The notes: generated by a model not told the origin, from the letters alone. Shown: positions 13,696 through 45,000, numbered from the stretch's first letter. The stretch is 64,000 nucleotides of DNA from a virus (IMGVR_UViG_3300048011_000525:51583-115582); one strand, 5' to 3'. Program-made: numbers and translations.

Positions 13696-13705
13696 TTTTT
13701 ATCTC

Positions 13706-17803: not shown

Positions 17804-17821
17804 TATTATGTCCTTTGTATA

Positions 17822-20274: not shown

Positions 20275-20275
20275 A

Positions 20276-21319: not shown

Positions 21320-21341
21320 AATGTTACTCCTATATAGTATT

Positions 21342-21370: not shown

Positions 21371-21372
21371 GA

Positions 21373-21380
21373 TATTTATT
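21373..21380 (-). promoter_or_regulatory. Late promoter (AATAAATA) upstream of the same operon
   Basis: AATAAATATC directly follows the terminator at 21393-21419 and precedes the sigma-70 promoter, so the operon may be read both early and late. Confidence 0.55.
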
Positions 21381-21392
21381 GAGGTACAGACA

Positions 21393-21419
21393 AAAAATGC
21401 GCCATTGTGGCGCATTTTT
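21393..21419 (-). terminator. Strong intrinsic terminator after the fibre-chaperone gene
   Basis: AAAAATGCGCC-ATTGT-GGCGCATTTTT: an 11-bp perfect stem with a T run on the minus strand. It ends the long fibre operon. Confidence 0.88.
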
Positions 21420-21442
21420 CATTTGACATTTTAGTTGAGTAA

Positions 21443-22156: not shown

Positions 22157-22177
22157 AATCTAATATCTCCTTCTGAG

Positions 22178-22185
22178 TATTTATA
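22178..22185 (-). promoter_or_regulatory. Consensus late promoter TATAAATA before the chaperone gene
   Basis: TATAAATACTCAG on the minus strand matches the T4 late consensus exactly. It lies close to the 3' end of the third Cys-rich gene. Confidence 0.75.
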
Positions 22186-22189
22186 TTTT

Positions 22190-23002
22190 TTAAAAAAATG
22201 TTACTTTAACAACGCCACCGCCGCCGGTGCCACCTTGCCCGCAACAACGTCCACAATAGTTCGATGTTGCACTTTGTCCTCCTGCGCCGTAAGGAACAAT
22301 CCAACAGCCGCATCTAATCCAACAATAGTTGGAGTTTTGTTCGTACCAGTTGTCACTTAAATTTGGTGCACCTGTTGAGTGGCCGTTGTGTTTCCAACAG
22401 TGACATGCGTTACCTGGATAAAAGTATCCAGACTGTGCTTGGAAGTTACCACCGTGTGTATAACTTGCCCAATCACCGCTTGCGCTTGTTCCTACGCAGC
22501 CTGGACGCACACAGTAAGGCATAGATGAATAACACATGTCTGTCCACGAGCTATTAGTACACCCTCTTTGTCCGCCACATGCACAAAGGTTACTTAAATT
22601 ATATCCATTAACATAAGTAGTACACCCGTTACAGCCATTACACTCACGACTTAGGCATCTGTATACACCAGCTGCACATACACTGTATGTACATCCTGAA
22701 TTAGTAGTTACACTTTTTGAAGTATATGCACCGCCGCCTGCTGGGCCAGTATGTTGGCATCGTTGACAACTACATGCACCTGCACCATTGCCACCTGCGC
22801 CCCATAGTTCCCAATTTAAACGTCTAGTACAGCTAGGTACAGTCCAGTTACAACAACAACCTGAACTACATCTACAACTAATTCCGTAAAACCATTTAAC
22901 ACAAAAGTTGTCTCTTACACCGCCTGTCAAATTATTATAATCAACAACACTATCAGTTAACTGATCTGAGCGCACTTTTTTGTAATCTGTATAATTTGCC
23001 AT
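22190..23002 (-). CDS. Cys-rich, Gly-rich adhesin-like protein, copy 3
   Basis: 270 aa with 30 cysteines (about 11%). It shares its layout with the two genes upstream: an N-terminal TDYKKVRSDQL stretch, a CRCSSGCCCNWTVP cluster, RRLNWELWGAGGNGAGACSC, GPAGGGAY, YSVCAAGVYRCLSREC, YVNGYNLS, NYCWIRCGCWIVPYGAGGQS and the closing CCGQGGTGGGGVVKVTF. The Gly-rich blocks (WELWGAGGNG, GGGAY, GGTGGGGVV) resemble receptor-binding tips of phage fibres. No signal peptide or membrane segment. A role as a receptor-binding or tip protein is inferred from composition and from the adjacent fibre and chaperone genes. The middle third (about 140-215) differs most between copies, as expected for a binding surface. 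Confidence 0.75.
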   Translation of the reverse strand: MANYTDYKKVRSDQLTDSVVDYNNLTGGVRDNFCVKWFYGISCRCSSGCCCNWTVPSCTRRLNWELWGAGGNGAGACSCQRCQHTGPAGGGAYTSKSVTTNSGCTYSVCAAGVYRCLSRECNGCNGCTTYVNGYNLSNLCACGGQRGCTNSSWTDMCYSSMPYCVRPGCVGTSASGDWASYTHGGNFQAQSGYFYPGNACHCWKHNGHSTGAPNLSDNWYEQNSNYCWIRCGCWIVPYGAGGQSATSNYCGRCCGQGGTGGGGVVKVTFF

Positions 23003-24455
23003 CTTTAATCCTTAAATATATGTCACTCGTACAAGTCCGCCGCCGCCAGTGCCGCTTTGTCCGCAACAATTATTACCACAGAATGTGTTCATTGCACTTT
23101 GTCCACCACTGCCATATGGCACACTCCAGCATCCGCATTTAATCCAACACTGTCTAAGTCCTTGTGTTGATCCGCCAGCTATTCTAAATCCCTGACCTTG
23201 ATGTATTTCTTGTGGGTGACAGTGACAGTATCCTGAAGCAGTGGAGAAACCTTGTGTTGTTCCTCCGATAGCAAAGTCACTACCTGTTGTAGTTGGCGCA
23301 AGGCAATAATAGTTTGTGCCAAAACAACCTGTTGACCAAGATGTATTTGCTTCTGCTCTATGGCCTCCACAAGCACAAAAATCACTTAGGTTGTATCCGT
23401 TTACATAACTAGAGCATCCATAACACCCTACACATTCACGATTTAAACATCTGTATACTCCAGCTGCACATACAGTGTATGTACACCCGGGATTAGTTGC
23501 AACCGTCTTTTGTGCAAAGGCGCCGCCTGATGCAGCTCTAAAATGGTGACATCTCTGATTACTACATGCACCACTTCCGTTGCCTCCTGCTCCCCACAAT
23601 TCCCAAGTAAGTCTTTTTACTTGGCTAGGTACAGTCCAGTTACAACAACAACCTGCACTACATCTACACGGAACACCATAAAACCACTTAACACCAAAGT
23701 TGTTTAGTGTATTTGGATTAATCATATTATCATCTAACCCACCGTCGGGTAATTGCGATCCGTTTACTTTTTTATAACTTGAATACGTTGCCATTTAATG
23801 TTCCCTATGCAAAAGTTATCTTTACTACGCCTGGGCCACCAGTGCCGCCTTGTCCACAACAACGTCCGCAATATGATGTCATTGCGCCCTGACCGCCATG
23901 ACCTGGAGGTGCAATCCAACAACCGCAACGTATCCAACAAACGTTGTTGGCCATAGCTACGTTGCCGCCTAAGAAAGGAGCTGCTGTTGGTCTAACATAT
24001 TGATGGTGACAGTGACAGTTAAAAATTCCACTAAAGTGGCCAGCGTGGCTGCTCATTCCGAAATCTCCGTTGTTAGCAGTTGGGCCTAAACAACAAGACC
24101 AACAACTAAAACAATATTGTGTCCAGTCAGTATTGGCTCTGCCGCATCCGCCTCCAACTGCGCAGAAATCTGAAAGATTATATCCGTTTACATATGTCGA
24201 ACATCCTGTGCATCCGATACACTCGCGACTTAGGCATCTGTATACACCAGCTGCACACATTGTGTATGTACAGCCAGGGTTAGTTGAAATCATTTTAGAA
24301 TTATATGCACCGCCGCCTGCGCCTTGATAGTGATGACATCTGTTACATGAACATGCACCACTTCCGTTGCCTCCTGCTCCCCATAGTTCAAAAAACACTC
24401 GTCTAGTACATCCAGGTACAGTCCAGTTACAACAACATCCTGCACTACATCTACA
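22835..24455. repeat. Three 42-bp direct DNA repeats, one per Cys-rich gene
   Basis: Nearly identical 42-bp blocks at 22835-22876, 23637-23678 and 24414-24455 (one or two differences) encode the CRCSxGCCCNWTVP region. A second conserved block encodes the AAGVYRC region near 22650, 23435 and 24230. Spacing equals gene length, as expected for tandem duplication. Such blocks could allow recombination between copies. Confidence 0.85.
23012..23794 (-). CDS. Cys-rich, Gly-rich adhesin-like protein, copy 2
   Basis: 260 aa with 25 cysteines. It keeps the framework CRCSAGCCCNWTVP, LTWELWGAGGNGSGACSNQRC, YTVCAAGVYRC, YVNGYNLSDFCACGG, QCWIKCGCWSVPYGSGGQS and CCGQSGTGGGGLVRVT. It has lost a few cysteines present in copies 1 and 3 (for example PSQVKR instead of PSCTRR). 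The variable segment (about 145-210) contains a CHCHPQE motif. Only 9 nt separate it from copy 3. The N-terminus ATYSSYKKVNGSQLPDGGLDDN resembles fibre-tip leader segments. Confidence 0.75.
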   Translation of the reverse strand: MATYSSYKKVNGSQLPDGGLDDNMINPNTLNNFGVKWFYGVPCRCSAGCCCNWTVPSQVKRLTWELWGAGGNGSGACSNQRCHHFRAASGGAFAQKTVATNPGCTYTVCAAGVYRCLNRECVGCYGCSSYVNGYNLSDFCACGGHRAEANTSWSTGCFGTNYYCLAPTTTGSDFAIGGTTQGFSTASGYCHCHPQEIHQGQGFRIAGGSTQGLRQCWIKCGCWSVPYGSGGQSAMNTFCGNNCCGQSGTGGGGLVRVTYI

Positions 24456-26955: not shown

Positions 26956-29900
26956 TTATCTGCTTAAGAAGTAGCCTAGTGCTACTGGTGCACCATCAAC
27001 ACCACCTGTGAAGTTCATCTTCGCTTTAATATTTAGCTGTCCTCCGCTGGTTGTTGTAATTTCATCGCCTGCAATGAATACTGTACCAGCAGTAAGTGTG
27101 TTAACATTCAAGCTAGACTGACCGCCACCAATCTGTGCTGTAATATAGCTTCTAATTGCACGTTGTGTTGGTACAATGTTATCACTATTTTCAGTAAAGA
27201 ATGGATCTGTACTGAACTGTGTAATAATCGCTGAGCCAATACCTAGTCCAAGACCGTTAATTTGTAGTGACTGTAGTCCTGCTAAGTTAAATGCATCAGC
27301 ATCTAGTGTCGCTGTACCAGTCGACTGTTGAACACCAAACAATCCGCCAACATTAAAGTTACCATCTTGGTCAGTACTTGTGTAGAACACTCGTCCTCCA
27401 CCACTACTTAATTGTTGTGCTTCAATGTATGCTGACGTAATATCAACAAACGGATAGTTAGTTTTTGCTTTATTACCAGTACCAATATACAAGAAGTCAT
27501 GTCCTGTTAGACGTACTTGCGAGTACTTGTTAGTAGTTGTAATTACTGTACCGTCTTTTGGTGCATTTAGTACATCTAGTCCTGGACTAATTTGGAATGT
27601 TGCTGTGTAGCTACCTTCTTGTCCAATAACATTACTAATTGTAACTAGTTTGTAATATTTTTCAGGAATATTTGCAAACTCAACATTTGATCCAGGTTCT
27701 GGCAGTTCAAACAAGTTACGCACAGCAATAAATGTACTTGGTTGATACAAGTCTGCACTACCGTCGCCGCCTAGTTCTGATGTTGCACTAGTATATCCTG
27801 AACCTCTGTTAGTAAACGTTGGTTGTCCTAGAACACCGTTTCTAATTCTTGGATTAATGTTAGCATCAACTGTTGAACTTGGGTCAGTAATAGTAACTAG
27901 CGGTCCTGCTTGGAATGTTGAACCTACCATGTCTTGCGTTACAATAGATTCAATATTGTAGCTTGGGCCGCCGCTTAATAAACTTACTTCAATAGTACTA
28001 CCAGTTACGTCTGATACATAATATAGTATTTCACTGTTAAGTGCTGCTGTTTCTAAGTCTGCGCCCTCAAATGTGATCGGTTGTCCTACATACATATTAT
28101 CTGTTGAATCTAATTCAATAGTGTGTGGTGATGTAAATGATACAATGTCACCAACTGGATATCCTGAACCCGGTTCTAACAATGTAGTAGCAATAAGTGT
28201 ACCATCATCTGCATAACATCTACCATGTGCTCTTGCACCAGTTTTAATTTTGTTAGCAGTTGTATTAGCATCACTTGTTAATGCAACCCAGGTCGGAACG
28301 TTATTTGGGTTACCAAATATTGGTGTTGACCAGCTTGCTGTTCCACTTAGGTCACCTTCGTTCCAAATTAAACCATCTGAACTAATTGCACAGCTAGAAG
28401 CACCGTCGCACACTGCTACGAACAAGCCTTGTCCGTATGCTACTCTTGTCCAACCAGTTGCACTAATGTTGTTTAGTGTTGTACCTTCGCTGTACCAATT
28501 TGCGCCAAAGTCATAGCTGATTGCATATTCGCCGGCATCTGAAATTGCAACAAAGCGTCCGTTACCCCATGCAAGACTTGTCCAGTCTCCGATTGCACTT
28601 GGCATATTGCCGCCGGCTTCCCATAGAATACCGTTTGAACTAACTGCTGTGTAACCGTCTGTATTAATTGCAACAAACTTTCCTGCTCCGTAGCGCACCG
28701 CACTAAACGTTCCGCTTGCAGGTGTTGTCATTGTACGCGGTGTCCAATTAGACCCGTTTGTTGACGTTTGTGCTGCGTCTACGCCGCCGACACTACCTAC
28801 TGTAACAAACGTTCCTGCACCGTATGCAATTCCTACATAGTGTGATTGACTAAACACATCGCCTGCTGTCCAGTTAGTATTTGCTTCGTCAATTGTCGGT
28901 AAGTATGCATTTGTAGTTGATCCGTTTGCAACAGCTACCCATTTAGCTTCGGTGTCAACAATCTCAACAGTTGGTGTAGTTGTATATCCTTCACCAAACA
29001 ACGGATTGTCATCAACATCAACATCTAGTCTAATAGCTATTACACCTTCGTTTTCTAAATTTGCAATTACTTGTGCTTGTGTGCTTGCGCCGCCTCCTGA
29101 AATAGTTACAGTTGGCGTGTTTAGGTATCCACTACCGCGTGTTTCAACAATTACTTCTGTAAGTTTATCTGTTGCTGCTGCAACAGTTGGTGCTTGTGCA
29201 TAACCAGCACCTGTACTTGTAATAATAATATTTTGAATAGCACCGTCTTTAACAGTTGCTACAGCAGTTGCACCGCCGCCACCTAGTGTTGATGTAAACA
29301 CAATAGTTGGAGGCGTAGTATAACCAGTACCACCTGCAACTACATTTACTCTAGCAATCTGTGTAGGTCCTGGTAAACCAATACTGTTTAGTTCGCCTAG
29401 TTCTGCTTCTAGTACTGCGCCAGTACCTCCAAGTCCGCCAACTACTGCTCTTGCAGTTGCACCCTGGCCTCCGCCGTATGCAACATCGCTCCAGTTAGCA
29501 CTTGCAGGTAATGCTCCACCTGTTGTCCAATTTTCGCCATCTAGTGAGTAATTTGTAGATGCTCCTGCTCCTCCTTCGAGTGCAATGAATCTACCATCAG
29601 CAAATATACCTGGACCAAAGTCTATTGCATCAGCTGTGCTTACACTGCTTGAGGTAAATCCTGGCTTAGCATAAACAATTGCAGGTTCAACAGTATAACC
29701 AGTTGTTAAGTCTAGTGAAGCTTCGCTAGGTTTTCCTGGAATAATGTTATCAAAACCTGCTGCATATATTGTTGCACTAGTAGTGTCATTGGTTAATACT
29801 TCAGTTACACCGCCTACTTCTGTGCTTACAGTAAATTGACCTCCGCTTACAATATTATTTACATAGTAAACATCGCTTGGACTATCACCTCTGCTTAGAC

Positions 29901-32900
29901 CACCTACGTCTTCACTAAAATATATTGGCATATCAACATAAAGTGTAGTAGTATCATCAACAGTAATTACGTTATTGATTGAACTAGTTGCTGTTACAAA
30001 TAAGTTGTCAAAACTTGGTTTGTAAACAGTACAGTTCTTAGTACCGTTGTTAAAGTTCAATACTTTACCGTATTGCCCAACACCTGTACCTGCTGTAATT
30101 TGTACTCTCATGCCGTTGTATGCATCACCTAGTGCAAAGTCTGTTGCAGCTAATGTAATGTGTACTGGATCGCCGCCCTGAGCAACGTTCTGTGCAATAA
30201 CAAAATCTTCGCCGCCAACAGTTGTGCCGTCATCAACGTCAATAATACGTGCTTCAACAACTGCTTGATCACGGAATTCATCTCCAACTGTAGCTGCATT
30301 AAATCCTGATCCACTAATTGCATATTGTACATTAGTGTAACCTGTACCAGCATTGCTGTATTCCATTGCAAGCACTTCTTCTTCACCGTCAGTTGATACA
30401 CTATAAACTAGTGCGTTCTGTGATAAGTTATCTGCATCTGCAACAATTGGTTCTTCACCTAAGTCTGTACCTTCAGCAATAACACCAAATGTACCATATG
30501 AGCTGTTACCGTTTGTAGCACGAATACGTCCGCCAAAGTCTGCAATATATCCTGCATAGTTGTAGTAAGCAAACACAGATACAAGTTCTGTTAGTGAGTT
30601 ATTACCGCTACACCAAACACCAATGCCATCACTTAAGATTTGTGTAAAGTCGTTACTAACAACAGATCTGTTTCCGCCGGCATGTAAAGAACCATCAATC
30701 TTATTACCAATACATCCTGTACCAAATGTTGATACGTTTTGTACATAACATGATTTATTAGTTACCCATGCTTCTGTATCCCATGGTCCAAATCCTGGAT
30801 CAAGCGATACATATGCGCCGCCAGTTGGTCGTCTTGTACCAAACTCGTTCTTTTCGCTTAGGTTACCGCGTAGTCCGTTAAATGTCATATTACGTGCGCC
30901 AGTTGCGTTACGTACATAGAACATATCTGAGTATTCAGAACCTTCTACAGCATTAACATATAGTCTTGCTGCTCGTAGTGAGTGATAATTACCTGGATAT
31001 TGTAAATCATATATCATAGCATCAATGTATGATGACATGTCACGCTTACATGCAGTTTCGTCAAAGTCGTAACTTGCAGTCATTGTTCCTGTGCCGCCTG
31101 TAAACGTATTAATACTTTCTCCGTCTACTTCGTCTGTAACTTCAATTTCAGTTGCAGAAACTACATTTGAAACATAGTAAGTAGTAGCAAGTTCAATGCC
31201 TCCAAACACTGTTCCAGTAAACACAATAGGATCGTTAAGTTGTAGATTGTGCGCACTTGTAAATGTAAGTGTTCCTGGAGATCCTCCTAGATCTGTAACA
31301 GTTCCTCCGTAGCTTGCTTTAATCCAAGCTGTTGCTTCTTCGCCCAAAAAGTCTTTGTTAACTTTTAGAGCATCAACTGCATTAATTGTTTCTCTATCAT
31401 TAAAGTATGTTGTAGTACCTTGGAATTCTGGAGTTACTTTATCACCGTTTTTAACTACATTAATAACAATATCCATCAAGTTATTAATACGTACTTTTGC
31501 TTTGGTGTTATCGTTACGTCCACCGTAAGCATTTGTAGTTCCTTCGCCTGTAACATATGTAGTAATATAGTTTTTAAGTTCTCTATATGCTTGTACAGTT
31601 ACTAAACGCTGTTCTTTAATCACTACATCAGCCTGTGTGCCTCTGTAATATGACAGTGCTGCTATAGTTGTTAGATAGTTAGTATCAAGTAACATATCTT
31701 TACCTACAGCATCAATAATGAGTCCTACATCTCTTTCGCACTTAGCTTGATCGTAAACTAGTGTTGGGAATTTTTCACGTATATAATCTGTAACATCTTC
31801 AACTATTGCTGATTTAGAACCCTGAATGTTTGTAAACTGTTGTTTTAAATTAGCAGTTACATTACTATAGTCAGGCCCTGGAATAAACTGCCATTCCTCT
31901 GTAAAGCTCCCTAATTCGGATTCAGGAAGTGTAAGTTCTGGTCCATTGAAGTACGCTGATACAGTAAATGTATTAACTGCTGGGACACTCTTAATGTAAT
32001 ATGTTCCTGCACTAACATCGCTAAATCCGTTTTCAAAATATAGTTCACTACCAACAGTTAGACCGTGGTTAACTGCTGTTGTTACTACATTTGATGAAAT
32101 TTCTATAACTTCAATACGTTTTCTAAATGCACCATCACCTAATGAATTATAAAACAGTGTCATTAGATCTTCAACTCTAGTAACAGTTCCTGAATCGCCA
32201 ATTAGTTGCGATTCATCTCTAAGGGTAGGTTCAACTTTTGTCTGTAATGCACCCGGACTAGACACACTATTTACTGCTAGACCCATTGCAATAAACTTGA
32301 TATAGTCAAATGCTGCTAATGTTGCTTCTAATTCGTTATCGCCAAGTTGAATATTGTTAGTTGCATCGTAGTAGTAATCTACTGCTCTGCGCATACCTGA
32401 TTCGCCACCGAACGTTAAGTCATAACGCAATGCATCTATAACATATTTGATATCTCTACGACATTTAGCTTCATTATAATCTAGATCTGGATAAGTTTGT
32501 GCAATATATTCAACAGTTTCTTCTTGAATGTACGCTGTGTTTTCCCAGATAGTAGAAGCACCCACAATGTCGGGTGTATCTTCTAAGTTAGTGTCAACCC
32601 ACTTTGGAGTAGGTAATGATCCGCCGTCAATGTAGCTAGTAATATCAGTTATTAGTTGTTTAATAGCTTCATTTGGTGCAGTTAATGCAACACGTCTTAC
32701 TTTCTCAGCTAAGAAGTTCATTGCGCCTACTGTTGCTGATTGTTCAAAACGTAAAGTTTTAAGTGCTGACGGAACAGCTCTGTAATATGCCATGCCTGCT
32801 TTAATTGTTGCAAAGTTAGAACCTGTAATAATATCACGTGCAAGTGCGTCAACAATTAATCCCGCATCTCTGCGACAAGTTGCTTGATTGTATTCTAAAT

Positions 32901-35900
32901 CTTGATGATATTTTTCTACCCAAAACACAACATCGTCTACAATTTCGTCTTTACGATCTTTAATTCTTTCATATGCTGTAGTAAGTTCTGTTAACTGCCA
33001 TTCTGTTGCAACTTCTGTCTGTGTTTCAAAAGTTGAGTTGTTTAGCCAATATGTAATATCATCTACACGTTCTTGTGCAAATTCAATTGATGCTGCATTA
33101 CCTACTGTACCGCTAGTATCTTGTGTTTCGGTAACACCTGGGCTAGTTGTAACACTAGTTTCAGCAACAATTTCGCCAATGATTTCACGCAGTCTTGCAT
33201 AAGATGCAAGTGTTGCTTGTAATTCGTTGTTTTGAATTGTTAGTACAAAGTTTGAGAAGTAAGCTGCTCCTGCAACGTTGGTTTGCGTATTACCACCGTA
33301 AGTTAAATCGTAACGGATAGCATCAACAATAAACTGTGCGTCACGGATGCAACGTTCTTGTGCATTTGGCGATAATCCTCCCCAAATATCGTCGTATCCG
33401 TTTGCTGGATCAACTAACCACTGTTGTAGTTCGTCTGCAATAAAGTCTCTATTAGCTAACAATTGATCTGCTGCATTGCCGTAAGTACTACTATCACCAG
33501 TAGTATTAGTAGTTGTAGCATACGCTGTATCAATTAATGCATCAGTATTGTATCCTGTTGGCGTTGGTAGTTTAATTGGAGGTACACTGTTTAGACCGTT
33601 TTGTATAACAGTTGTCATATCCTTAACAAGTTTAAATGCTTCATTTGCAGCATTTGCTTGTCCAATTGTTGTATCAACACCGATTGTTAATTCAGTTAGC
33701 GATTCGTTAATATAATCAATAGTGTCAACTGTTGCGCCTAACTGGTTTGCTAGTACTAATTCAGTTGAAGTAATGCCTCTTTGATATGACTTGCCTGCTG
33801 TAATACTACGGAAGTTGCTATCAAAAATTACATCGTATGCAATAGCATCAATCATGTATCCTACATCACGAGCACACTTAGTTTCGTCGTAATCTAATGC
33901 TGGATGCACTTTGTTAATATAATCAATTGCTCCAGCTTGGATCAGTGATCTACGTGCATCTACTACAGCTTTAAACTCTTGTAAGCCAGTATCTACCCAA
34001 GCAATACTTGGATTAATTATAGCTGGCAACACTCCAGTATCGACTGTATCTTTAATTTCTGTAAGACGATCAACTGCAAATGCTGCTGCACCTGCTGAGC
34101 CAACAGTTCCAGCTGTATCTTGCGATGTAATATTGCCTGCACTTGGTGTAATACTTACACCAGTTGCAATATCGTCAATTATTGTTGCAAGGTGTGTTGC
34201 TAAATCAACTCTTGCAGTTTTTTGATTTGATGGATGAACTAGCACACCGTCTACATAGTTAGCTCTTGCAATAACAACAGACTCTATGTTTCCTCGATAT
34301 GTTAGATCATAACGTAATGCATCAACTAATTCATCTATTCCGTCAAGCCACGTGTTTTGTTCATCTAAAGTCAGTGCTGTCCATACTGCGTTGTGATTAG
34401 TATTTAGGTATGCTGCTGCTTCGTCTAATATAAACTGTTTGTTAGCAACAACAAGTCTTCTTGCGTTAAAGAACCCTGTATCATATCCAGTAGGATCAGT
34501 AATTGTATAAGATCCAGGAACATTATTGTTAACTACAATATCTTTAATTGTTGTACTATTAGAAACAAGTTTATCAGTGCCACTAGTAATATCTCTAATC
34601 TCTCTTCTCAAGTGATCAACAGCACCTAGTGTTGCTTCTAGTTGTTCGTCAATAACAACTTCGGCGGAACTTATAGCTCTACGATATGCCATTCCTGATT
34701 TTGTACCATTAAATTTAGAATCAAACAGCATGTCGTAAACTAGTCCGTCAATAATGTATCCAGTATCTCTAGAACATTTAGTATGATTGTATACAAATCC
34801 AGTATAGTTATTTGTAATGTATTGTAATAAATCTGGAACAACTGTTGTGTCGTCTAAAGTTGCCTCAGCATCGGTTTGAATTGCAGCAGTTACCCATGTA
34901 ATAACCGGATATACTGTTGTTGGTAATGCAATTGTGTCGCCTGCATTAACAACATCTGAAATAATCTGTACTAATGTTGCAACTTCTGCTTCTTCAGTTG
35001 CTCCAGACATATAAGTTGCTGCAATTACTGCGATTTGCTCAATAGCAGCAGCAGTTCTTTCACGCTGTGCTCCTGGTAGTACTTCAATATAGCCATTAAA
35101 GTATGCTTTAGCTGCTTCAACGCTTGCGCTGTTACCACCGTACTGTACGTCATAAGATACAGCATCAATAATGTAACCAGTGTCTCTTTCACACAATGTT
35201 TGATCATATGTAAAGTTAGGGTAATTAGTATTAATCCAAGTAATTACATCTGTAATAATTGTTGCTCGATTAGTTTGAAGTTCTGTACGAGCAGTAGTTT
35301 TATCTACATCGCCTGATCCGCCGCTCCAAGTAATTGCATTAGGTGTATTGTTCTCAACAATGTCAAGTACTTCGTCCCAATAAGTATTGCTTCTAGTAAT
35401 AGCAGTAGGATCGCTCATCAATGCAGCAACTAATGATTTCTGTTCAGTAATTGCACCAAGTGTTTCCGTAATCTGTTCTTCAAGAACTTTTTCGCCTGCA
35501 TAACTTCTTCTATAAGCCAATCCGTTACGAATAGAGTTATAGTTTGTTTCTAATGCAACGTCATACGCTGCGCCAGTTTGTAAAATTCCTGCATCTCTAC
35601 GACAGCTAGAACTGTTATAAACGAATTTACCATAGTTTGTATTAATAAAATCAATTACAGAATTTTGTAAAGTTGTTTTTTCAGTAGTAATGTCGTCAGT
35701 AATTGAAACTAATGAAGTTGATACCCAACTAGTATCTGGAGTAATTGGTGTAGGTAACGTACCATCAGTATCAATTGTATCAAAAATTTCTTGAATACGA
35801 TCGTCAGCAAAAGTTTCTGCTGCTGCACTACCAGGTGATCCAGCAGTATCTTGTGCTTCACCATTGCCGGAAGTTGGTGTAATTGCTGTTTCAGTAATTA

Positions 35901-38900
35901 CATCGCCTATAATTGATTTTAGATGTGTATATGTTGCAAGTGTTTCTTCTTTCTTGCCTGTACCGTATACTGGATTACCGTCTACAAAATAACTTCTAGC
36001 TGCAACAGTAGTTTGGAAGTTGCCGCCGTAAGTTAAATCATAACGTAGCGCATTTAAGATGTAACGTGTATCTCTTTCACAGTTTGCAGTATCAAATGTA
36101 AAGTCTGCTGCAAACGGTGCAATTACACCATCAACTTGTGCTTGAATCCATGCAGTTTGTTCTGCAACAATAAAGTCAATGTTTGCTTCAATTTGTGCAA
36201 TAGCATTTGCAAAGCCGCTGTCGCTTGCATTATTTGATCCACTTGTTGGTGTTACACCAACATCTGGAACTAACGCAACATCTTCAATGCCATTTTCTAA
36301 GATATCAAGAGTTTTAACAATTGACATATCTAAACGCTGTGTTGATTCAGTTGCTCCGCCATATCCATTTAAATATCTTTGTGAAGCTGTATTACCGCTA
36401 GTAGCATCAATAGTAATGTTTTGAATTACTTGCTCTGATACGTCTTTAATTCTGTTCAGTGCGCTTGTAGTTTTATCTTTGTCGTTAGCAAGTAGTGGAA
36501 TTGCAGGTTGCGGTTGAATAACTGATGTACGCAATTCGTCACCAACAATAGCAGTATATTCTGGAATAATAATTGGAAGTATTTCGTTATATGTACCAGT
36601 TTTAATGAATATTGTTGTGTTTGGTAATTGCGGAAGTGCAATAGCCGTATTTGATTCTGCTTCTAATCCAACAGTTACAATATCAATTAATGTACCTGCT
36701 TTTGCCTTACCGCTATCTTCTGCAACCAAGGTTAAATCAATAAATTGTGCTGCACGTTCTTCAATTGCAATTCCCATTAGCGACTGATAGCTAACTGGTT
36801 TTTCGTTGTTTAATACTTTTGCTACTAACGATTTTAACTGCTCGTATGCTTCGATAGTTTGTGTACGCTGATATCCAAACACATCGGTGATGTATTCATT
36901 CCCAGCTTCTGTATAGTATGACTTAGCAGCTTCAGTAGTTCTTAGTGTGCCGCCGCGGCCAATATCGTAGTACAATGCATCAATAATGTAGCCGGTGTCT
37001 CTTTCGCATTTTGCTGAATTATAAGAAAGTTTACCAGTCATAACGCCAGTTGCATCAGTTGGGATAAAGGAAATTCCGCCTTGTGTTTCTGAAATTCTAA
37101 ATGTAGTTGAGCTTATAATACTATCAACATAATAAGTTTGTCCTTCTACTACACCTCCAAATATGTCTACGCCGTCAAATTCAATTGGCATTCCGTCTTT
37201 TAAATTACTAGTGTCGTAAGTAGTAAACAAGCGCGATGCAGCCACTGTTTCGGTTACTATAACAGAATAAGTATAGTCTAACCAAGAAGTAATTTCTTTC
37301 TTAAAGAACTGTTTGTTGTTTTGTAAAATTTGTTTTGTTTGAGGATTTAAGTAGCCGTCACGTACTTGCTCTAGTGCATAACGTACACTTCTCCAAGGTT
37401 TGTCAATAGATAGACCTGAACGTGGAGCTGGCTCGTTTTCGCCTAGTGGTCCTACATAAACAACGTTATCAACTAGACCATAGTTTGCCCAGTCTGGCTT
37501 ACCATCTGTAGCACGTAAAATCTGACCGTCAACGCCGATTGGAAGTCTAGTTGGTCCTTGATTTCCGTAATACACCATGTCGCCTTCAGTAGTAAGAGCA
37601 AGTGCTTCACTACCAAGTGTTAATAGGTTCCAGTAATCTGCTTCTAAATCGTTATCTGGACGATTTGCATTTTCTGATGTATGGGTTGCTGTAGCAATAA
37701 ACGAACTTGCACCGTAAATAACAACATCGCCAACAACATAATCTGTAGCTGGTGTCCAAGTAGATGAATAACCTACATGTGAAACTGTATCAACTGCTCC
37801 TCCTGTTACACCTGTTACTGTTACAACAATGTCGTTAGCAGGAGTAGTACCGCCTACACTGTTACCGGCAACTAAAATAGTATCATCTTCTGCATATCCA
37901 GTACCAGCAAATCCAGTTGAAACATTTACTGTGTATACTGTTTTAGATTTAGTAACGTCAAATCGTACTCCAGAACCAGATCCTTCTACATTAGTACCTT
38001 GTACTTGTAGGAAGGTTTGTGTACTGTTAGTCCAGTTAATTCCTGAGTTTAGTTTACTCCAGTAAATATCATTTGGTGGAGTAACGTCTGTACTATCAGC
38101 AACAGACACATAAGTTGTTCCGCCTAAGCGAACAACATCACCTACTTTATATGAGTCTAATGAGCTCCAGTCTCCTTGAAAGCTAAAGCCAGTTGTAAAT
38201 ACTTCCCAGTCATTTGGGCTGGCAGTTGGTTGTGCAGCAGTGTTATTAGTTTTAGCAACATAAACATAACCACCGTATGTTACAGTGTCGCCAATTTGAT
38301 AAACTGTTGAACTATTCCAGCTGTCTTCAAACTGGAAGCCTTCAATAAATACGTCCCAGTTTGTTTCGTCAGTTAAGAAATCATCTGAAGTGTGCGGAGC
38401 AACACAAATGAATACGTTGCCGCCAAATTTAACAACATCGTTAACTTTGTAACGTGTAGCAGTTTGCCATTCACCTAAGTAAACAAGTCCGTCACTAAAT
38501 AGTTCCCAGTTACCTTGGTTTGCTTCTAGGCCAAGTGTTGCTGTAGCAGCAGAAATGTGTGCAGTGGTACATAGATATACAAAGCCGCCGTAGCGTACTA
38601 GGTCGTTAATTTTAAAACGTGTATCAGTTGTCCAATCACCTTTCCAATCAAACGATGTAGCAAACGGAGTCCAATTATCAAGATTTTCTTCTAAACCTAA
38701 AAAGTCAGGTGCTTCAAATGTAGCCGACGTGTGTCCTGTTTCAGCAATATACACTAATGAACCGTATTTAACAACGTCACCTGGTGCGTATTCTACTTCG
38801 GGCTCCCAAAGTCCTCTCCATTTAGTACCATCTGAAACTACTTCCCATTTTGGAATTTCATTACTAAAATCAGTATTAAATGCTTCTGATGATGTATGGT

Positions 38901-39021
38901 TTTTAATACAAATATATGATTTACCACCAAAGCTCACTACATCATCTGCAACATATGTTGCGGCTGATGACCATTCGCCCTGCCATACAAACCTAATTCG
39001 TCCTAGTTTAAACTCTGCCAT
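26956..39021 (-). CDS. Giant tail fibre/adhesin protein, 4021 aa
   Basis: The largest gene. From the N-terminus: seven tandem modules of the type WxGxWxxxxxYxxGDVVxYGGxxYxC (about residues 10-480), resembling carbohydrate-binding CBM5/12-like repeats; a beta-helix start (YVGPLGENEPAPRSG; FIKTGTYNEILPIIIP; IVGDELRTSVIQPQ); an array of 12 repeats (about 660-2700) containing CERDTGYIIDAVSYDVQYGG-like units; the rest of the beta-helix (RNMTFNGLRG; RRPTGGAYVSLDPGFGP; RIRATNGNSSYGTFG); Gly-rich GxGYxxxPTV repeats (about 3200-3360); a beta-propeller-like region (YGxGxFVAV...SxDGxxW, about 3160-3590); and a C-terminal domain with STDQDGNFNVGGLF and IVPTQRAIRSYI. It is probably a side or long tail fibre that binds surface glycans. 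It has its own late promoter. Confidence 0.85.
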   Translation of the reverse strand: MAEFKLGRIRFVWQGEWSSAATYVADDVVSFGGKSYICIKNHTSSEAFNTDFSNEIPKWEVVSDGTKWRGLWEPEVEYAPGDVVKYGSLVYIAETGHTSATFEAPDFLGLEENLDNWTPFATSFDWKGDWTTDTRFKINDLVRYGGFVYLCTTAHISAATATLGLEANQGNWELFSDGLVYLGEWQTATRYKVNDVVKFGGNVFICVAPHTSDDFLTDETNWDVFIEGFQFEDSWNSSTVYQIGDTVTYGGYVYVAKTNNTAAQPTASPNDWEVFTTGFSFQGDWSSLDSYKVGDVVRLGGTTYVSVADSTDVTPPNDIYWSKLNSGINWTNSTQTFLQVQGTNVEGSGSGVRFDVTKSKTVYTVNVSTGFAGTGYAEDDTILVAGNSVGGTTPANDIVVTVTGVTGGAVDTVSHVGYSSTWTPATDYVVGDVVIYGASSFIATATHTSENANRPDNDLEADYWNLLTLGSEALALTTEGDMVYYGNQGPTRLPIGVDGQILRATDGKPDWANYGLVDNVVYVGPLGENEPAPRSGLSIDKPWRSVRYALEQVRDGYLNPQTKQILQNNKQFFKKEITSWLDYTYSVIVTETVAASRLFTTYDTSNLKDGMPIEFDGVDIFGGVVEGQTYYVDSIISSTTFRISETQGGISFIPTDATGVMTGKLSYNSAKCERDTGYIIDALYYDIGRGGTLRTTEAAKSYYTEAGNEYITDVFGYQRTQTIEAYEQLKSLVAKVLNNEKPVSYQSLMGIAIEERAAQFIDLTLVAEDSGKAKAGTLIDIVTVGLEAESNTAIALPQLPNTTIFIKTGTYNEILPIIIPEYTAIVGDELRTSVIQPQPAIPLLANDKDKTTSALNRIKDVSEQVIQNITIDATSGNTASQRYLNGYGGATESTQRLDMSIVKTLDILENGIEDVALVPDVGVTPTSGSNNASDSGFANAIAQIEANIDFIVAEQTAWIQAQVDGVIAPFAADFTFDTANCERDTRYILNALRYDLTYGGNFQTTVAARSYFVDGNPVYGTGKKEETLATYTHLKSIIGDVITETAITPTSGNGEAQDTAGSPGSAAAETFADDRIQEIFDTIDTDGTLPTPITPDTSWVSTSLVSITDDITTEKTTLQNSVIDFINTNYGKFVYNSSSCRRDAGILQTGAAYDVALETNYNSIRNGLAYRRSYAGEKVLEEQITETLGAITEQKSLVAALMSDPTAITRSNTYWDEVLDIVENNTPNAITWSGGSGDVDKTTARTELQTNRATIITDVITWINTNYPNFTYDQTLCERDTGYIIDAVSYDVQYGGNSASVEAAKAYFNGYIEVLPGAQRERTAAAIEQIAVIAATYMSGATEEAEVATLVQIISDVVNAGDTIALPTTVYPVITWVTAAIQTDAEATLDDTTVVPDLLQYITNNYTGFVYNHTKCSRDTGYIIDGLVYDMLFDSKFNGTKSGMAYRRAISSAEVVIDEQLEATLGAVDHLRREIRDITSGTDKLVSNSTTIKDIVVNNNVPGSYTITDPTGYDTGFFNARRLVVANKQFILDEAAAYLNTNHNAVWTALTLDEQNTWLDGIDELVDALRYDLTYRGNIESVVIARANYVDGVLVHPSNQKTARVDLATHLATIIDDIATGVSITPSAGNITSQDTAGTVGSAGAAAFAVDRLTEIKDTVDTGVLPAIINPSIAWVDTGLQEFKAVVDARRSLIQAGAIDYINKVHPALDYDETKCARDVGYMIDAIAYDVIFDSNFRSITAGKSYQRGITSTELVLANQLGATVDTIDYINESLTELTIGVDTTIGQANAANEAFKLVKDMTTVIQNGLNSVPPIKLPTPTGYNTDALIDTAYATTTNTTGDSSTYGNAADQLLANRDFIADELQQWLVDPANGYDDIWGGLSPNAQERCIRDAQFIVDAIRYDLTYGGNTQTNVAGAAYFSNFVLTIQNNELQATLASYARLREIIGEIVAETSVTTSPGVTETQDTSGTVGNAASIEFAQERVDDITYWLNNSTFETQTEVATEWQLTELTTAYERIKDRKDEIVDDVVFWVEKYHQDLEYNQATCRRDAGLIVDALARDIITGSNFATIKAGMAYYRAVPSALKTLRFEQSATVGAMNFLAEKVRRVALTAPNEAIKQLITDITSYIDGGSLPTPKWVDTNLEDTPDIVGASTIWENTAYIQEETVEYIAQTYPDLDYNEAKCRRDIKYVIDALRYDLTFGGESGMRRAVDYYYDATNNIQLGDNELEATLAAFDYIKFIAMGLAVNSVSSPGALQTKVEPTLRDESQLIGDSGTVTRVEDLMTLFYNSLGDGAFRKRIEVIEISSNVVTTAVNHGLTVGSELYFENGFSDVSAGTYYIKSVPAVNTFTVSAYFNGPELTLPESELGSFTEEWQFIPGPDYSNVTANLKQQFTNIQGSKSAIVEDVTDYIREKFPTLVYDQAKCERDVGLIIDAVGKDMLLDTNYLTTIAALSYYRGTQADVVIKEQRLVTVQAYRELKNYITTYVTGEGTTNAYGGRNDNTKAKVRINNLMDIVINVVKNGDKVTPEFQGTTTYFNDRETINAVDALKVNKDFLGEEATAWIKASYGGTVTDLGGSPGTLTFTSAHNLQLNDPIVFTGTVFGGIELATTYYVSNVVSATEIEVTDEVDGESINTFTGGTGTMTASYDFDETACKRDMSSYIDAMIYDLQYPGNYHSLRAARLYVNAVEGSEYSDMFYVRNATGARNMTFNGLRGNLSEKNEFGTRRPTGGAYVSLDPGFGPWDTEAWVTNKSCYVQNVSTFGTGCIGNKIDGSLHAGGNRSVVSNDFTQILSDGIGVWCSGNNSLTELVSVFAYYNYAGYIADFGGRIRATNGNSSYGTFGVIAEGTDLGEEPIVADADNLSQNALVYSVSTDGEEEVLAMEYSNAGTGYTNVQYAISGSGFNAATVGDEFRDQAVVEARIIDVDDGTTVGGEDFVIAQNVAQGGDPVHITLAATDFALGDAYNGMRVQITAGTGVGQYGKVLNFNNGTKNCTVYKPSFDNLFVTATSSINNVITVDDTTTLYVDMPIYFSEDVGGLSRGDSPSDVYYVNNIVSGGQFTVSTEVGGVTEVLTNDTTSATIYAAGFDNIIPGKPSEASLDLTTGYTVEPAIVYAKPGFTSSSVSTADAIDFGPGIFADGRFIALEGGAGASTNYSLDGENWTTGGALPASANWSDVAYGGGQGATARAVVGGLGGTGAVLEAELGELNSIGLPGPTQIARVNVVAGGTGYTTPPTIVFTSTLGGGGATAVATVKDGAIQNIIITSTGAGYAQAPTVAAATDKLTEVIVETRGSGYLNTPTVTISGGGASTQAQVIANLENEGVIAIRLDVDVDDNPLFGEGYTTTPTVEIVDTEAKWVAVANGSTTNAYLPTIDEANTNWTAGDVFSQSHYVGIAYGAGTFVTVGSVGGVDAAQTSTNGSNWTPRTMTTPASGTFSAVRYGAGKFVAINTDGYTAVSSNGILWEAGGNMPSAIGDWTSLAWGNGRFVAISDAGEYAISYDFGANWYSEGTTLNNISATGWTRVAYGQGLFVAVCDGASSCAISSDGLIWNEGDLSGTASWSTPIFGNPNNVPTWVALTSDANTTANKIKTGARAHGRCYADDGTLIATTLLEPGSGYPVGDIVSFTSPHTIELDSTDNMYVGQPITFEGADLETAALNSEILYYVSDVTGSTIEVSLLSGGPSYNIESIVTQDMVGSTFQAGPLVTITDPSSTVDANINPRIRNGVLGQPTFTNRGSGYTSATSELGGDGSADLYQPSTFIAVRNLFELPEPGSNVEFANIPEKYYKLVTISNVIGQEGSYTATFQISPGLDVLNAPKDGTVITTTNKYSQVRLTGHDFLYIGTGNKAKTNYPFVDITSAYIEAQQLSSGGGRVFYTSTDQDGNFNVGGLFGVQQSTGTATLDADAFNLAGLQSLQINGLGLGIGSAIITQFSTDPFFTENSDNIVPTQRAIRSYITAQIGGGQSSLNVNTLTAGTVFIAGDEITTTSGGQLNIKAKMNFTGGVDGAPVALGYFLSR
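30900..37060 (-). repeat. Array of 12 protein repeats in the giant fibre gene
   Basis: Each unit of about 140-240 aa contains a helix-rich core (C-x-R-D-x-x-Y-x-I-D-A-x-x-Y-D). Centres lie near 36990, 36085, 35605, 35190, 34770, 34320, 33875, 33345, 32865, 32455, 31725 and 31050. From the second unit on, two types alternate: one with YDLTYGGN...AAxxYF and one with (D/G/E)(S/T)(N/K)(F/Y)...AGxxYxRA. Confidence 0.85.
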
Positions 39022-39056: not shown

Positions 39057-42000
39057 TTATTGTTGTCCGCCGCGTGTAGGATCGACAAGCGTCTTAAAGA
39101 AATATGCCATTGCTAATCCATCTCCGGCCCATCCACTGTTACCAAATGGTCCATCAAAATTAGTAAGTGTTGGCATTTTAACTTGCCATCCTTCTCCGCC
39201 TTCTTGTACTGAAGATGTAATAATATCAGGTCCACCTACTTTAACAGTACCTGCTTGTAGCAAGCCTGTAAACGTATCTGCACCACCTTGTGACAATCTA
39301 CTTGCCAAATATGTTCTAATTGCTCTCTGTGTTGGAATCAAGTTGTTCGAGTTAGCAACGAACGTTCCGTCTGTTGAGAAAGCATTAATTGTTACCGGTG
39401 ATCCGCCAAGTGCAACACCGCCAATTGCTAGTTCTGTTAGCCCGTCTAGTCCAAATTCATCTGCACTCAATGTAACAATACCAGTTGCCTGTTCAACAGC
39501 AAACAAGTCACCAACTCTAAAGTTACCGTCTTGGTCTGTACTTGAATAGAACACACGCCCGTTGTTTGTTTCTTGAATTTCGTCTTGCGGTTCTAAGTTT
39601 GTATTTTCAGGTAAGTCGGGATAGTTAGACTGCTGTTCGTTACCAAAACCAATATTTAGGAAGTCATGGTTTGTTAGACGTACTTGGCTAAATTTACTAC
39701 GAATAGTAAATGGTGTATTGTGTGCCGGAGAGTCTGCTTGATCAACTTGCGGACTTAATTGAATTACTGCTTCTAAGTTTGGTATAGATGTGCCTCTTAG
39801 CGCAGTTGCAGTTGCAACACGGTATATTTCAGAATTACCTTCAAATTGTAAGTTGTCACCTGGTGCCGGAAAGCGTGTAATATCTTTTGCAATTATTCTT
39901 AGACCTTCTTGAAACTGATCTGAAAATCCGCTGCCTCGTAGTGCAATACCAGTAGATGTTGTGTTATACCCACTACCAAAATCTACAAAGCTAGGTGCAC
40001 CTAGTGTACCGTTGCCTATACGTAAATCTGTAACTGCTTCTTCTGAGTTGTTAGGATCAATAATTTTAATTGTTGGACCAAAGCTGTCATCAGTATAACC
40101 TGATCCAGGTTCAAACATATTAATATCTGTTAGTGACTGACTTGTTACGCTTGCAAATGCTTGTGCCCTAGCACCTGCTGAAATTTTATTTGCTATCTGT
40201 CCTGTGCTATCCATTGTTAAGAACCAGCCCTGTTTAGTGTCTGCATTGAACGTGAATCCAATTACACTATACAAAGACTGGTTAATTATAGGCTGTACAT
40301 CCCACTGTAAACCGTCAAAGGATGTGCAACAAATTCCAGACTCGTTGTTAATAACAACAAATACGCCTTGTCCGTATTCTAATACAGTTCCTTTTACATT
40401 TGTAGTTGACTCATACCAAGTTACACCGTCGAAACTGTATGCTGCTGTCCTGTCGTCTGTCGAGACTGCAACAAAACGTCCGTTACCGTACTTAATCGAG
40501 CGCCAGTTGTTAACTGTAGAATCTTGTGCAGTATCTAAGCTGCCCACTGTCCAGTTATCAAGCGCATCGCCAGGGCCGTTTGATAACACTTCGTGGCTTG
40601 ATCCGTTAATGATAACAAAAGTACCTTTACCGTATGCAATATCAACTTGATCGTTATCTGATACAATAGAGTTAAAAGATGTAATACTAGTCCAAGTTGC
40701 ACAATTGTCTGTAGAATAGTAAGCTTCTCCGGCGCCCCTTGTGATTGCTATAAATATGCCGTTGCCGTATTGTACTTTTTGATAAGTTCCTTGCGACAAT
40801 GTTGGCAAATCAACACTTAGCCAAGTTAATCCATTTGATACTGAATATAAACAATTTTTTCCAGTCTCTGAAAGTATAAACCAGCATCCGTTACCGTATG
40901 TTCCGTCTATCCAACCATTGTTTTCATTCGGATTGTCAACATCAATTGCTTGACCATATTGAGGAAGTGTAATTTTAGTATCCCATGCTGTATAGTCACT
41001 AGTTGTATACACTTCATTTCCATATCTTGGAATAACTATCGGAAAAAATCCATTTGAAATTATAGTTTGCGGAACTAAGTCTTCATTTACAAATCCTGTC
41101 ATCCCTTCTTGATAAAATGGAGGTGTGTCAAATTCTATTCTTGGTGAAACTTCATAAACTGATGTTGAGTCAAATGCACTAGTTGGTGGCGTCCCAGGAT
41201 TAATATGATCCCATCCTACTGCATTAATTTGCATTGACCCTGTTTCATCATCTAATGCAAATTCAACAACGCCGCCGTCAGTGTCTGTTAGTGTTAACTC
41301 AAAAGTTGAACCAAGATCGGTTGCTTGGAGTACATAGTAATTTGTACCTGATTGCACGCCGCCAAATATTTCAGTAAAGAAGGAAGCCTCCATTAAATCT
41401 CGTCCTGCTTCAAGTTCTTCTTTTCCGCCTGGCAAAGTACCTACAACTGAACCATTTTCAGTTGTAAGAATAACTTCGTCTAGTACTGTTCTTACAATTA
41501 CTTCACCTGTTGCTGTAGTTAGCGGTACTGCTGCGCCGCCTTCTGTAGCGGAAATTGTAAACGAGGTAGCATCGTTAATAACTTGAATAAAATAAACTGT
41601 ATCGTTTGCAATTTCGCCAAACGTAATACCAGTAAACATAATCGGACTGCCAACAGTAAATCCAGCAGTACTATCAACTGTAATTAGGTTTGTAATTGCT
41701 TCAGTAGCAGTCGAAGTTCTTGTAATTACATCACTTGCTATACTAAACTTAGTACCGTCAATGATGTCGTTAACATAATATCTTGTTTTTTCTTGTATGC
41801 CACCAAGTGTGCCTGACTTAAAAATAATTGCATCAAGTGGTGTTAGTACAGAAGTATCTGAAGTTAGTAAAGAATTGTCTGATGCACTAGTGTCTGTCAC
41901 TGTTATATTTCGAAGTGCTGTTGAAACTGAGAATTTATTATTTTCATAAACATCGTGAATGTAATAAGTATCGCCTAATTCAATTCCTCCAATACTTCTG

Positions 42001-45000
42001 CCAGTAAATTGAATTGGCAGTGTAACTTGCATATTATCAGTTGAACTTGCTTCTAAGAAACTAGTACCGTCTGGATAGTTTAGTGTAAACTGTTCAAACC
42101 CTTGGAATTCGTCAACTGCATCTTCAACGTTAACATTAATTAATGGCCATACAGCGCCACCAAATACTGTTGAAATTTGTATGCTAGTATCGTCAATTAC
42201 ATCGATAATATAATAATCAAAGTTAGTAATAACTCCACCGAAAACCGGGCCACTAAAGTTAATTTTTTGTCCTACACGAAGTCTTTCAGTACTTTCAACA
42301 ATCATGCGATTGTTTTGATCACCAAGAGTACCAACAACTGCTACTTGACTTTGTGAACTTGATAGAACATCAATATCGTAAACTGTTGGAGTAAATGTAA
42401 TAACTTGATTTTGATAAAGTCTATGAAAATCTGCTCCGGATCCTAATGTTAATACATTATCAACAGCCCTAGCTGCAACAACTTCTTGTTGCCCAAATGA
42501 TTCTTTGGTTATATTAGCAAATTTAGTTATTGGATCATAGCTAGAAATAATACCGTATTGTCCAGCGCCTTTACCGGACGATACGCTTAAACGCATACCT
42601 TCGTATTCTGCTGCTGTTGAAACTTCTGACTGCGCTAGTACTAGATATTCGGTGTTTCCGCCCTGTGCATTGTTTGATTGAAAGTTATAACCTAAGCCGC
42701 CTTTTCTAATAATATTACTTTCTAACAATCTAGTTTGATATATAGATCCAGAACGTAACTCATCTGCAACTATTCTTGCATCTTGACCAGCACCTTGTAC
42801 ATTTATATTTGCATAAGATGTAGGCATATCGGCAAATGTTTCTAAGAAGAAATTCATAGTGTCACCAATTTCAATCTGTGTTCCGTAAAAGTTAGTATAT
42901 CCTGTAATACCGTCGACGCCTCGAGGATACAATCTAAATTGTAAATTTGTATTTTGTGCAGTTTCGTCATATACTGTATACTGTATTCTCCACCAACCAT
43001 CTGATAGGAAATTAGCTTTGATATTAGTTGGAGTTGTTTCGCTGTCAGTTAACACTTGAGTCGATACATCCTGTGATTCAAAGTTAAATCTTACATAGGA
43101 AGTCCTAGTTTCAAACCCACTAAAAATATTATAAAAATCTACATAGTTTGTGTCACCTTGTTTTACGTGTACACTAACTGTATACGGTAATGCACTTCCA
43201 GTTGGCACTGTTCCTACACTATCAAATGACTGAATTGCTGTAATACTCAATTCTTGTACTGTAATTACAATATCATTTACGTCATCTCTGCCGCCAAAGT
43301 TTGTACCTGCAAGAGTAATCTGGTTACCAACAACGTAGCCGCTGCCACTGTTGTTTAATGTAACTTCATAAAACTCACTAGTTACTGTAACATCAAATGT
43401 TGCGTCTATACCAGAACCTGAAATGTTTGTACCTGCAATATTAGTATATGTTCTACCTTGCGGAGATATAGTAACATCTTGATAAACGTATGCGCTATCT
43501 GACAGTGAAGTGTTTGCTGTTATTTTCCAGGCAAATTCACCATCGTACGGTGTTGTGTTTGCTCTAACAATTGAAATATTACCGTCTGTTTGCCAATATT
43601 CGTCTGGTAAATTATTACTTAATAAGCTATTTGAATGTTTTAATAAATTAGTTGTAGAAGTAAAATAATCTTCGCCAGCGTGTTTATATTCTAATTTTAG
43701 TACTTCTGAGTTAGCACCTAGTGCAGATACTGGCAGTGCAATAGCATCGTTGTCTCTGTTGTTAACTGTGCCTGTTGCAGGTACTTCTGCAACGTCAAAT
43801 CCTTCAGCAACACAACCAAATGTACCATATGAACTGTTACCGTTTGTAGCACGAATACGTCCACCGTCTTCCGCAAAATATCCTGCATAGTTATAGTATG
43901 AAAACACAGAAACACACTCTGTTAATGAGTCGCCACCTGTACACCAAATTCCAATACCGTCTGATATAATTTGTGTAAAGTCATTTGAAACCATTGAGCG
44001 GTTGCCACCGTTATGTAGCGTACTATCAATTTTACATCCAGTACATCCTTTGCCAAAGTTAGTAACATTTTGGATATAAGGAGAACGTGCTGTAATCCAT
44101 ACACTAGTATCATCCGGTCCGGTGCCTGGATCAAAACCTACATATGCGCCGCCAGTTGGTCGTCTTGTTAAAAATTCGTTTTCTACAGACAATGTTCCTA
44201 ATAATCCTTTAAGTGTCATATTACGGACACCGCAGTCATTAGTTACTTGAATCATATCTCCAAGTGCTTCGCCGCCATATACATACATTGCTCCAATGTT
44301 AGTTGTTATTTCGACTTGATCACCGTCGGGTTCTTCTGACACACTAAATCTGTCAGATTCAATTGAACTACCAATTACATAATAAGTTTTACCAGGAATT
44401 ACATCGCCAATAACTGTACTAATTTCTTCAACTGGATTTAGTGATACAAACTGTACAGGAGTATTATGCTCCATATTAATTGTTGAACCAACAATGAATT
44501 GATTAATAAATCCAAACGTTCTTGTACATAATGTATTAACAGGTGCTGCTGGCTGTACAGTTGTGCCACGCAACTCGTCGCCGTTTAATGCTGTATTAGG
44601 TGGCATCTTAATAGGCAGGCGCTCATTATAAGTGCCTGATTTAATATTAATTGTTGAGTATGTGCCTTGGTTTTCTGGCGGGATGCTCTTAGGAGATCCG
44701 TCTAAGAATGGCTGTACTAATATTTTTTCTAATGCTCCTACAAAAGTAAGTGCATCGTCTTCGAGTACTAATCCATTATTAAAATACTGTGGTATTGGAT
44801 TTTGAACATTTTCTAACACTCGATAATCTTGTGCTGGTGCAGTGTTTGTAAGTGCTAATTCAATATTATTAAATAACTCTACAAAGAATTCTGCAAAAAA
44901 TTCTGCTTGTTCTGCAACAGTGTCATTTGTAAATCTATTTGTACTTTCGGTATTAAAGTATGATAGTGCTGCTCTAACAGTTTGTGCATTGCCGCCGCGT

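Follow-up and report, generated by a model that had tools for sequence, protein, structure and literature searches.

A tandem array of helical domains with a predicted phycobiliprotein-like fold within the beta-helix of a giant phage tail fibre

How can the shaft of a phage tail fibre come to hold a long array of repeated domains between two of its turns? The question is raised by a 64,000-nucleotide stretch of viral DNA, IMGVR_UViG_3300048011_000525:51583-115582 (the window), which is part of a 115,582-bp record from an uncultured T4-like phage encoding a Gp23 capsid protein, a tail sheath and neck proteins. Four large genes of fibre or baseplate type, A (4021 aa), B (2620 aa), C (1739 aa) and D (1894 aa), are clustered in it. 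The open reading frame (ORF) for A (26956-39021) matches the tail-fibre families PHROG 9851, 4527 and 5342, and B, its paralogue, was called at 39057-46919; these and all other fibre features given below lie on the minus strand. We propose, with a probability of about 0.72, that A is a giant beta-helix fibre bearing phycobiliprotein-like units at two turns, and that the second of these, site 2, holds one permuted unit of type a together with a series of a-b pairs. The computation shows the sequence architecture, the gain and loss of units in pairs, a single beta-helix in a homologue and the predicted fold.

Results

Site 2 of Fibre A Interrupts a Segment That Is Continuous in Neighbouring Fibres

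The segment GDELRTSVIQP starts at residue 827 of A and RNMTFNGLRG at residue 2710, leaving 1,872 residues between them. The matching landmarks of B start at residues 780 and 899, with 108 residues between. A sequence-only reading of the window had put these distances at about 1,850 and 110 residues and had placed the array within a beta-helix; our measurements reproduce both spacings, and the uninterrupted segment carried by C and D, together with the homologue model described below, argues for the placement. In C and D the corresponding landmark segments are only 17 residues apart, and hidden Markov models (HMMs) built from the A-D fibres pass through both proteins with a gap of 5-7 residues at site 2. 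The beta-helices of C (51322-52284; HMM bn 1-76 then bc 1-155, 5-residue gap) and D (57414-58118, by HMM) run without insertion through sites 1 and 2, whereas A and B are interrupted at both. The empty version of site 2 is thus found in C and D and not in B, which carries an insert of ∼97 residues (44259-44549), a small beta domain judging from landmark spacing and sequence, where A has its array. At site 1, which lies upstream, A and B each contain one copy of the helical unit, that of B at 44718-45161 by HMM.

The beta-helix of A would begin with a first strand and cap helix (“bn1,” 37327-37467; HMM bn2 1-45), an element also present in B, C and D. Site 1 (36631-37326) follows, comprising a “TYYV” beta domain, assigned by sequence only (about 37057-37230), and one type-a unit matched by HMM (36646-37053). 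Rung 1 (36511-36630; HMM bn2 37-76) ends in GDELRTSVIQP. Beyond the array, the continuation of the beta-helix (SDMFYVRNATGARNMTFNG..., “bc,” 30463-30930; HMM bc2 1-155) is 70% identical to B.

The TYYV beta domain is a second, independent insertion module, found at site 1 of A (37057-37230) and at site 2 of B (44259-44549). It also occurs in or beside two helical units of A, at residues ∼2300-2375 and ∼2570-2650.

A Homologue Is Modelled as One Beta-Helix

Because the full insert of A is too long to fold, we modelled the homologue with the shortest site-2 insert, L038, which is 60% identical to A in rung 1 and 66% in the following part. With 78 sequences in the alignment, AlphaFold2 returned a model with a mean predicted local distance difference test score (pLDDT) of 90.9 and a predicted template modelling score (pTM) of 0.88. 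It comprises one beta-helix and two helical inserts, in the order strands, site-1 helices, strands 216-251, site-2 helices 258-427 and strands 435-583. A search of the PDB by sequence with the beta-helix profile returned nothing. Compared by structure with single-chain beta-helix proteins using VIA-align, the model best matches the Fri1 tailspike (6c72_A, Z 17.5, root-mean-square deviation [rmsd] 2.6). The 195 aligned residues span model positions 8 to 591, across both inserts, and exceed the length of the stretch that follows the second insert. The model supports the prediction that A is a right-handed beta-helix fibre whose successive rungs are continuous across the flanks of the array. Whether the flanks share one beta-helix was the check proposed with the sequence-only reading, and its outcome on this homologue favours insertion.

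Two Half-Units Enclose Ten Alternating Full Units

An iterated HMM over about 150 loci served to define the units. The scan detects 12 of them in A, of which one precedes GDELR (residues 657-792) and eleven follow it, in agreement with the earlier count of eleven of twelve repeats between the landmarks, except that one (residues 1525-1664) has lost its C-x-R-D motif and the last (2649-2696) is an N-terminal half alone. The matching C-terminal half (843-913) lies directly after GDELR. Between the halves are ten full units (31420-36195), scoring 91-146 bits each, whose types follow from the tree below and the last of which were also studied by AlphaFold2 and PDB search. From the N-terminal end, HMM matches place type-a units at 35749-36195, 34915-35283, 34030-34449 (C-x-R-D lost), 33016-33465 and 32128-32550, each followed by a type-b unit at 35323-35694, 34549-34845, 33577-33960, 32593-32964 and 31420-31830, respectively.

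The C-terminal half-unit (36283-36495; HMM positions 70-134, 23 bits) is assigned to type a by 26.6 versus 7.9 bits, and the N-terminal half (30934-31077; HMM positions 22-69, 47.8 bits), which runs straight into the beta-helix, by 48.7 versus 32.3 bits. The same order at site 2, namely C-terminal half, n full units, N-terminal half and beta-helix, characterizes the A-like lineage, some half-units being below detection. Across this lineage 54/57 C-terminal halves type as a; for the N-terminal halves the figures are 44/57 for a and 2 for b, the rest being undecided. The two halves, both of type a by score, thus resemble a single circularly permuted unit of that type, with the full units lying inside it.

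When 232 units drawn from 40 arrays are placed on a tree, odd and even positions separate with 6 units misplaced, which bears out the two alternating repeat types described earlier. Within proteins, identity is 0.33 between a units, 0.34 between b units and 0.26 between a and b. Ungapped DNA repeats inside the array are short and at most ∼81% identical. No match to gene A was found in a near-identity search against phage records; the same A-type protein, at 3,995-4,040 aa, occurs in other metagenome assemblies. The unit scores, the divergence of the DNA repeats and the likeness of these other assemblies show that the array is neither a chance pattern nor an assembly artefact.

Full Units Appear to Be Gained and Lost in Pairs

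Among about 50 A-like homologues, site 2 holds 0, 2, 4, 6, 8 or 10 full units and never an odd number. The insert has about 175 residues when n = 0 and about 1,850 when n = 10, each pair adding about 330. At least 16 changes of n were inferred on a 51-sequence tree that rests on 195 residues. Sixteen successive even changes would have a probability of 1.5e-5 were odd and even steps equally likely, a figure to be read with the possibility that recombination inflates the count. L043 and L024, both with n = 8, align with n = 10 arrays minus one pair close to the beginning; L026, with n = 4, corresponds to the final four units of the L028 array (n = 8). These alignments and the always-even counts support the a-b pair as the probable unit of gain and loss, and so the growth by two-repeat block duplication suggested by the sequence-only reading. 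The comparison of repeat number among relatives, which it had also called for, shows even steps from 0 to 10 and near constancy among close relatives: these hold 10 or 8 full units, and among the 10-unit proteins total length stays within about 1%. The units of window A and L014 correspond one-to-one by position, so the array is old and stable in that clade.

We also considered whether all insertion sites share the even-number rule and rejected this, as site 3 and long site-1 arrays have both odd and even counts. The same helical unit occurs at these other turns (sites 1 and 3), in odd and even numbers, in L018 (DSL-LC03), L019 (S-PM2), L078, L085 and L097. The ORFs of L047, L061 and L064 exceed 5,100 aa and run off the end of the contig; they encode about 27 to 30 units in tandem, which come after the beta-helix and not inside it.

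The Unit Is Predicted to Fold Like a Phycobiliprotein

In the AlphaFold2 model of window A, the last array units have a pLDDT of mostly 80-93. Foldseek ranks phycobiliproteins first for these units (E 3.7e-3, probability 1.00), and all 50 rows listed by VIA-align are phycobiliproteins or engineered derivatives (Z 14.8-15.6, 121-157 residues aligned), with 2bv8_B superposing on the window unit at an rmsd of 2.2 over 128 residues. The site-1 unit of the L038 model independently retrieves the same family, with Z up to 14.6. Helical bundles can reach Z 13-14 through a common arrangement, and the values for the unit are just above that; the uniform family in the match list is a stronger point than the Z values alone. 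We predict that the unit has the globin-like phycobiliprotein fold.

A profile of the 65-residue core, searched against the PDB, ranks phycocyanin alpha first (E 0.017; 31/32 matches). A broad unit profile reaches phycocyanin only at E 0.5, behind an unrelated pilin, so sequence alone is no proof of kinship. Profile-profile comparison of all-unit profiles with CpcA plus CpcB, or with CpcA alone, gives a probability of 77-88% and, for a single comparison, E 2e-5 to 3e-6; the score of 35 exceeds the best of 200 shuffles (25.8). The comparison set consists of database sequences, fetched with a CpcA query. Profiles of type a or b alone give 50-85%, and CpcB alone gives less than 20%. The alignment from hhalign places C-x-R-D of the unit on C84-x-R86-D87, and the similarity is confined mostly to about 25 residues. 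The Pfam phycobilisome family (PF00502) has no match in the 115.6-kb record even at E 10, and for this reason the unit, despite its predicted fold, is classed outside that family.

Over 277 diverse units, the cysteine is kept in 85%, the arginine in 88%, the aspartate in 96% and a later tyrosine in 93%. The tyrosine is present in 235/236 units with the cysteine versus 22/41 without it (p 4e-17, a value that ignores shared ancestry, as do those for the other couplings). Cys-Arg and Cys-Asp are also coupled, and the cysteine is uncoupled from other conserved positions, namely D40, G49 and N51. This coupling of Cys, Arg, Asp and Tyr points to one pocket or core cluster in the putative fold.

Bilin Genes and Genome Context

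In the C-x-R-D motif of phycobiliproteins, the cysteine is the covalent attachment point of the bilin, to which the arginine and aspartate form hydrogen bonds (PMC10151467). We searched the 115.6-kb record for bilin reductase, heme oxygenase and CpeT and found none; nor does it contain psbA or NblA. The record may not be complete, and a host could supply bilins. Of 45 other unit-bearing uncultured records, 42 lack the reductase and oxygenase and 3 have both, while none has CpeT, which is present in 3/4 cultured cyanophages. No psbA was found in the unit-bearing uncultured records. Database phage records with the unit number 182, comprising 181 cyanophages and one marine virus. The window phage's own capsid protein is closest to those of jumbo phages of Vibrio, Sinorhizobium and Pseudomonas, which lack helical units. 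Given this capsid affinity to phages of proteobacteria and the missing psbA, the host may have no bilins, and the bilin supply of the window phage is doubtful.

In the records behind L064, L080 and L098, unit-bearing uncultured contigs without psbA, heme oxygenase adjoins bilin reductase. S-RSM4 (L017) has a cpeT lyase gene (8276-8800) about 1 kb upstream of its giant unit-bearing fibre gene (9754-23202).

The N-terminal part of A is a run of CBM_5_12-like modules (37507-39021, outer limits approximate; six stretches matched, PF02839, E 5e-33), the only family found in a Pfam scan of A and B. Beside the fibre cluster, at 12403-18457, are at least six consecutive 2-oxoglutarate-Fe(II) (2OG-Fe(II)) oxygenase-like genes. 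Genes for a NolO-like carbamoyltransferase, a heptose kinase/adenylyltransferase and a sugar epimerase (18454-20274 and 10039-11996) suggest glycan modification. The tail sheath protein (1497-4664) has 1055 aa, and its top PHROG profile match is 915 positions long.

Discussion

A Looped-Out Array on a Beta-Helical Shaft

In the model that we favour, one helical unit is inserted in the beta-helix at site 1. Past rung 1, the chain would exit the beta-helix at site 2 via the C-terminal half of a type-a unit, run through five a-b pairs and return via the N-terminal half of a type-a unit directly into the next rung. The insert would in general comprise one permuted a unit and k pairs, with k = 5 in A. 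Most likely, and as the best-supported mechanism, the array forms a looped-out side arm or a structural spacer on the shaft. As both of its ends would meet the shaft at a single point, growth would be restricted to pairs, one unit reversing or offsetting the chain and the second restoring it. The fibre may be a trimer, and the array may adjust its reach or bulk, perhaps with a role in host contact. No pigment is assumed.

Several points weigh against this model. In the truncated model of window A itself, the beta-helix after the insert is poorly predicted (pLDDT 25-50), perhaps owing to the absence of rung 1 from the construct. Recombination could have inflated the number of copy-number changes, as L043 and L024 share an eight-unit arrangement and are placed apart on the tree. 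L050 differs in arrangement: its site 2 lacks half-units and holds three full units, set in another phase. Even counts also fail elsewhere, arrays at site 3 having 3, 5, 6 or 8 units. Finally, the trimeric state, the shape of the array and the packing of a against b are what we infer, not what we observe.

The poor post-insert prediction is what one would expect if the flanks were separate domains joined by the array as an ordinary linker. We give this reading almost no credence, because C and D connect the two segments with 17 residues between the landmarks, the complete homologue is modelled as a single beta-helix at pTM 0.88, and the tailspike matches reach both sides of the inserts. The range of 0 to 10 full units over the family could be taken for a fast-evolving length dial that generates fibre variants within a population. 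Such a dial is most improbable, considering that close relatives keep 10 (or 8) units, that those of window A and L014 match position by position, and that no near-identical DNA copies are present in the array.

A compact helical spacer with a Cys-Arg-Asp-Tyr structural core could have converged on the phycobiliprotein fold without shared descent, and the failure of PF00502 to match even at E 10, the E of 0.5 for phycocyanin with the broad profile and the concentration of similarity in about 25 residues all speak for this. That sequence and structure searches both rank phycobiliproteins first, that the profile-profile score exceeds every shuffle and that the units are nearly exclusive to cyanophages among database phages speak for kinship, so that convergence is a serious contender, somewhat short of an even chance, and common descent is somewhat better than even. 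Convergence concerns origin and is compatible with the architecture proposed here. A more far-reaching possibility is that the units are true bilin-binding domains, the cysteine or a pocket holding a linear tetrapyrrole and the fibre being a pigmented biliprotein. The predicted fold, the alignment of C-x-R-D with the bilin-attachment motif (PMC10151467), the conservation and coupling of its residues, the near-restriction of database carriers to cyanophages and the few unit-bearing contigs with both heme oxygenase and bilin reductase are in its favour. It is nonetheless unlikely, given the lack of CpeT, reductase and oxygenase in the record, their rarity or absence in the other uncultured records, a host that may have no bilins, and units without the cysteine; moreover, the Pelagibacter phage Mosig has a bilin cassette and no units. 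Pigment binding is probably absent. The wider idea that fibres carry tandem bilin-binding domains derived from phycobiliproteins, making some virions biliproteins, is more improbable still; if true, phage bilin reductases, heme oxygenases and CpeT lyases would be used in the particle, not in the host antenna.

If the looped-out architecture is correct, the phage shaft acts as a docking platform, in which one turn of a beta-helix may be left empty or take up either a small beta domain or between 1 and 11 helical ones. The always-even rule would be a precise constraint on the evolution of a repeat protein whose two ends come back to one point. What phage bilin enzymes are for is debated, with bilin-binding globins named as one possible user (PMC11480375), and a phycobiliprotein-like fold with C-x-R-D, nearly confined to cyanophages in databases, offers a new angle on why phages carry them.

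Comparison with Known Systems

A search covering few subscription journals and no bioRxiv preprints found no report of phycobiliprotein or globin folds in phage fibres, and in this searchable literature we found no counterpart to the fold assignment of the unit, the permuted junction or the pair rule. The unit resembles phycobiliproteins and bilin-binding globins (BBAGs; PF00502) in predicted fold and in the matching position of C-x-R-D. It differs from them in having no Pfam match, in forming tandem copies within a single phage fibre chain, and in a record without lyase or bilin-synthesis genes. The a/b alternation recalls the alpha/beta pairs of phycobiliproteins, a putative correspondence.

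Pectate-lyase-like tailspikes such as Fri1 gp49 (6c72) and that of Pam1 (7eea) have a right-handed beta-helix shaft in common with A, but we know of none with such domain arrays looped out between rungs. The tail fibre of Mosig (QOI69027) has a related beta-helix with an insert of about 84 residues at site 1 and one of about 98 at site 2, but, in contrast to the window phage, Mosig has no helical units anywhere in its genome. Giant “short tail fibre” or structural proteins of T4-like cyanophages (PHROG 4527, 5342 and 701; for example, SRSM4_214 of S-RSM4, p091 of S-PM2 and WJZ47903 of DSL-LC03) share the helical unit and a related beta-helix. They show lower identity (about 25%), are annotated only as tail fibre or hypothetical proteins, and come from phages that carry psbA. 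Inserted domains are already known from beta-helix fibres, as are giant fibres from cyanophages. S-PM2 has five units within the beta-helix at site 3 and DSL-LC03 three at site 1, whereas the array of A is at site 2.

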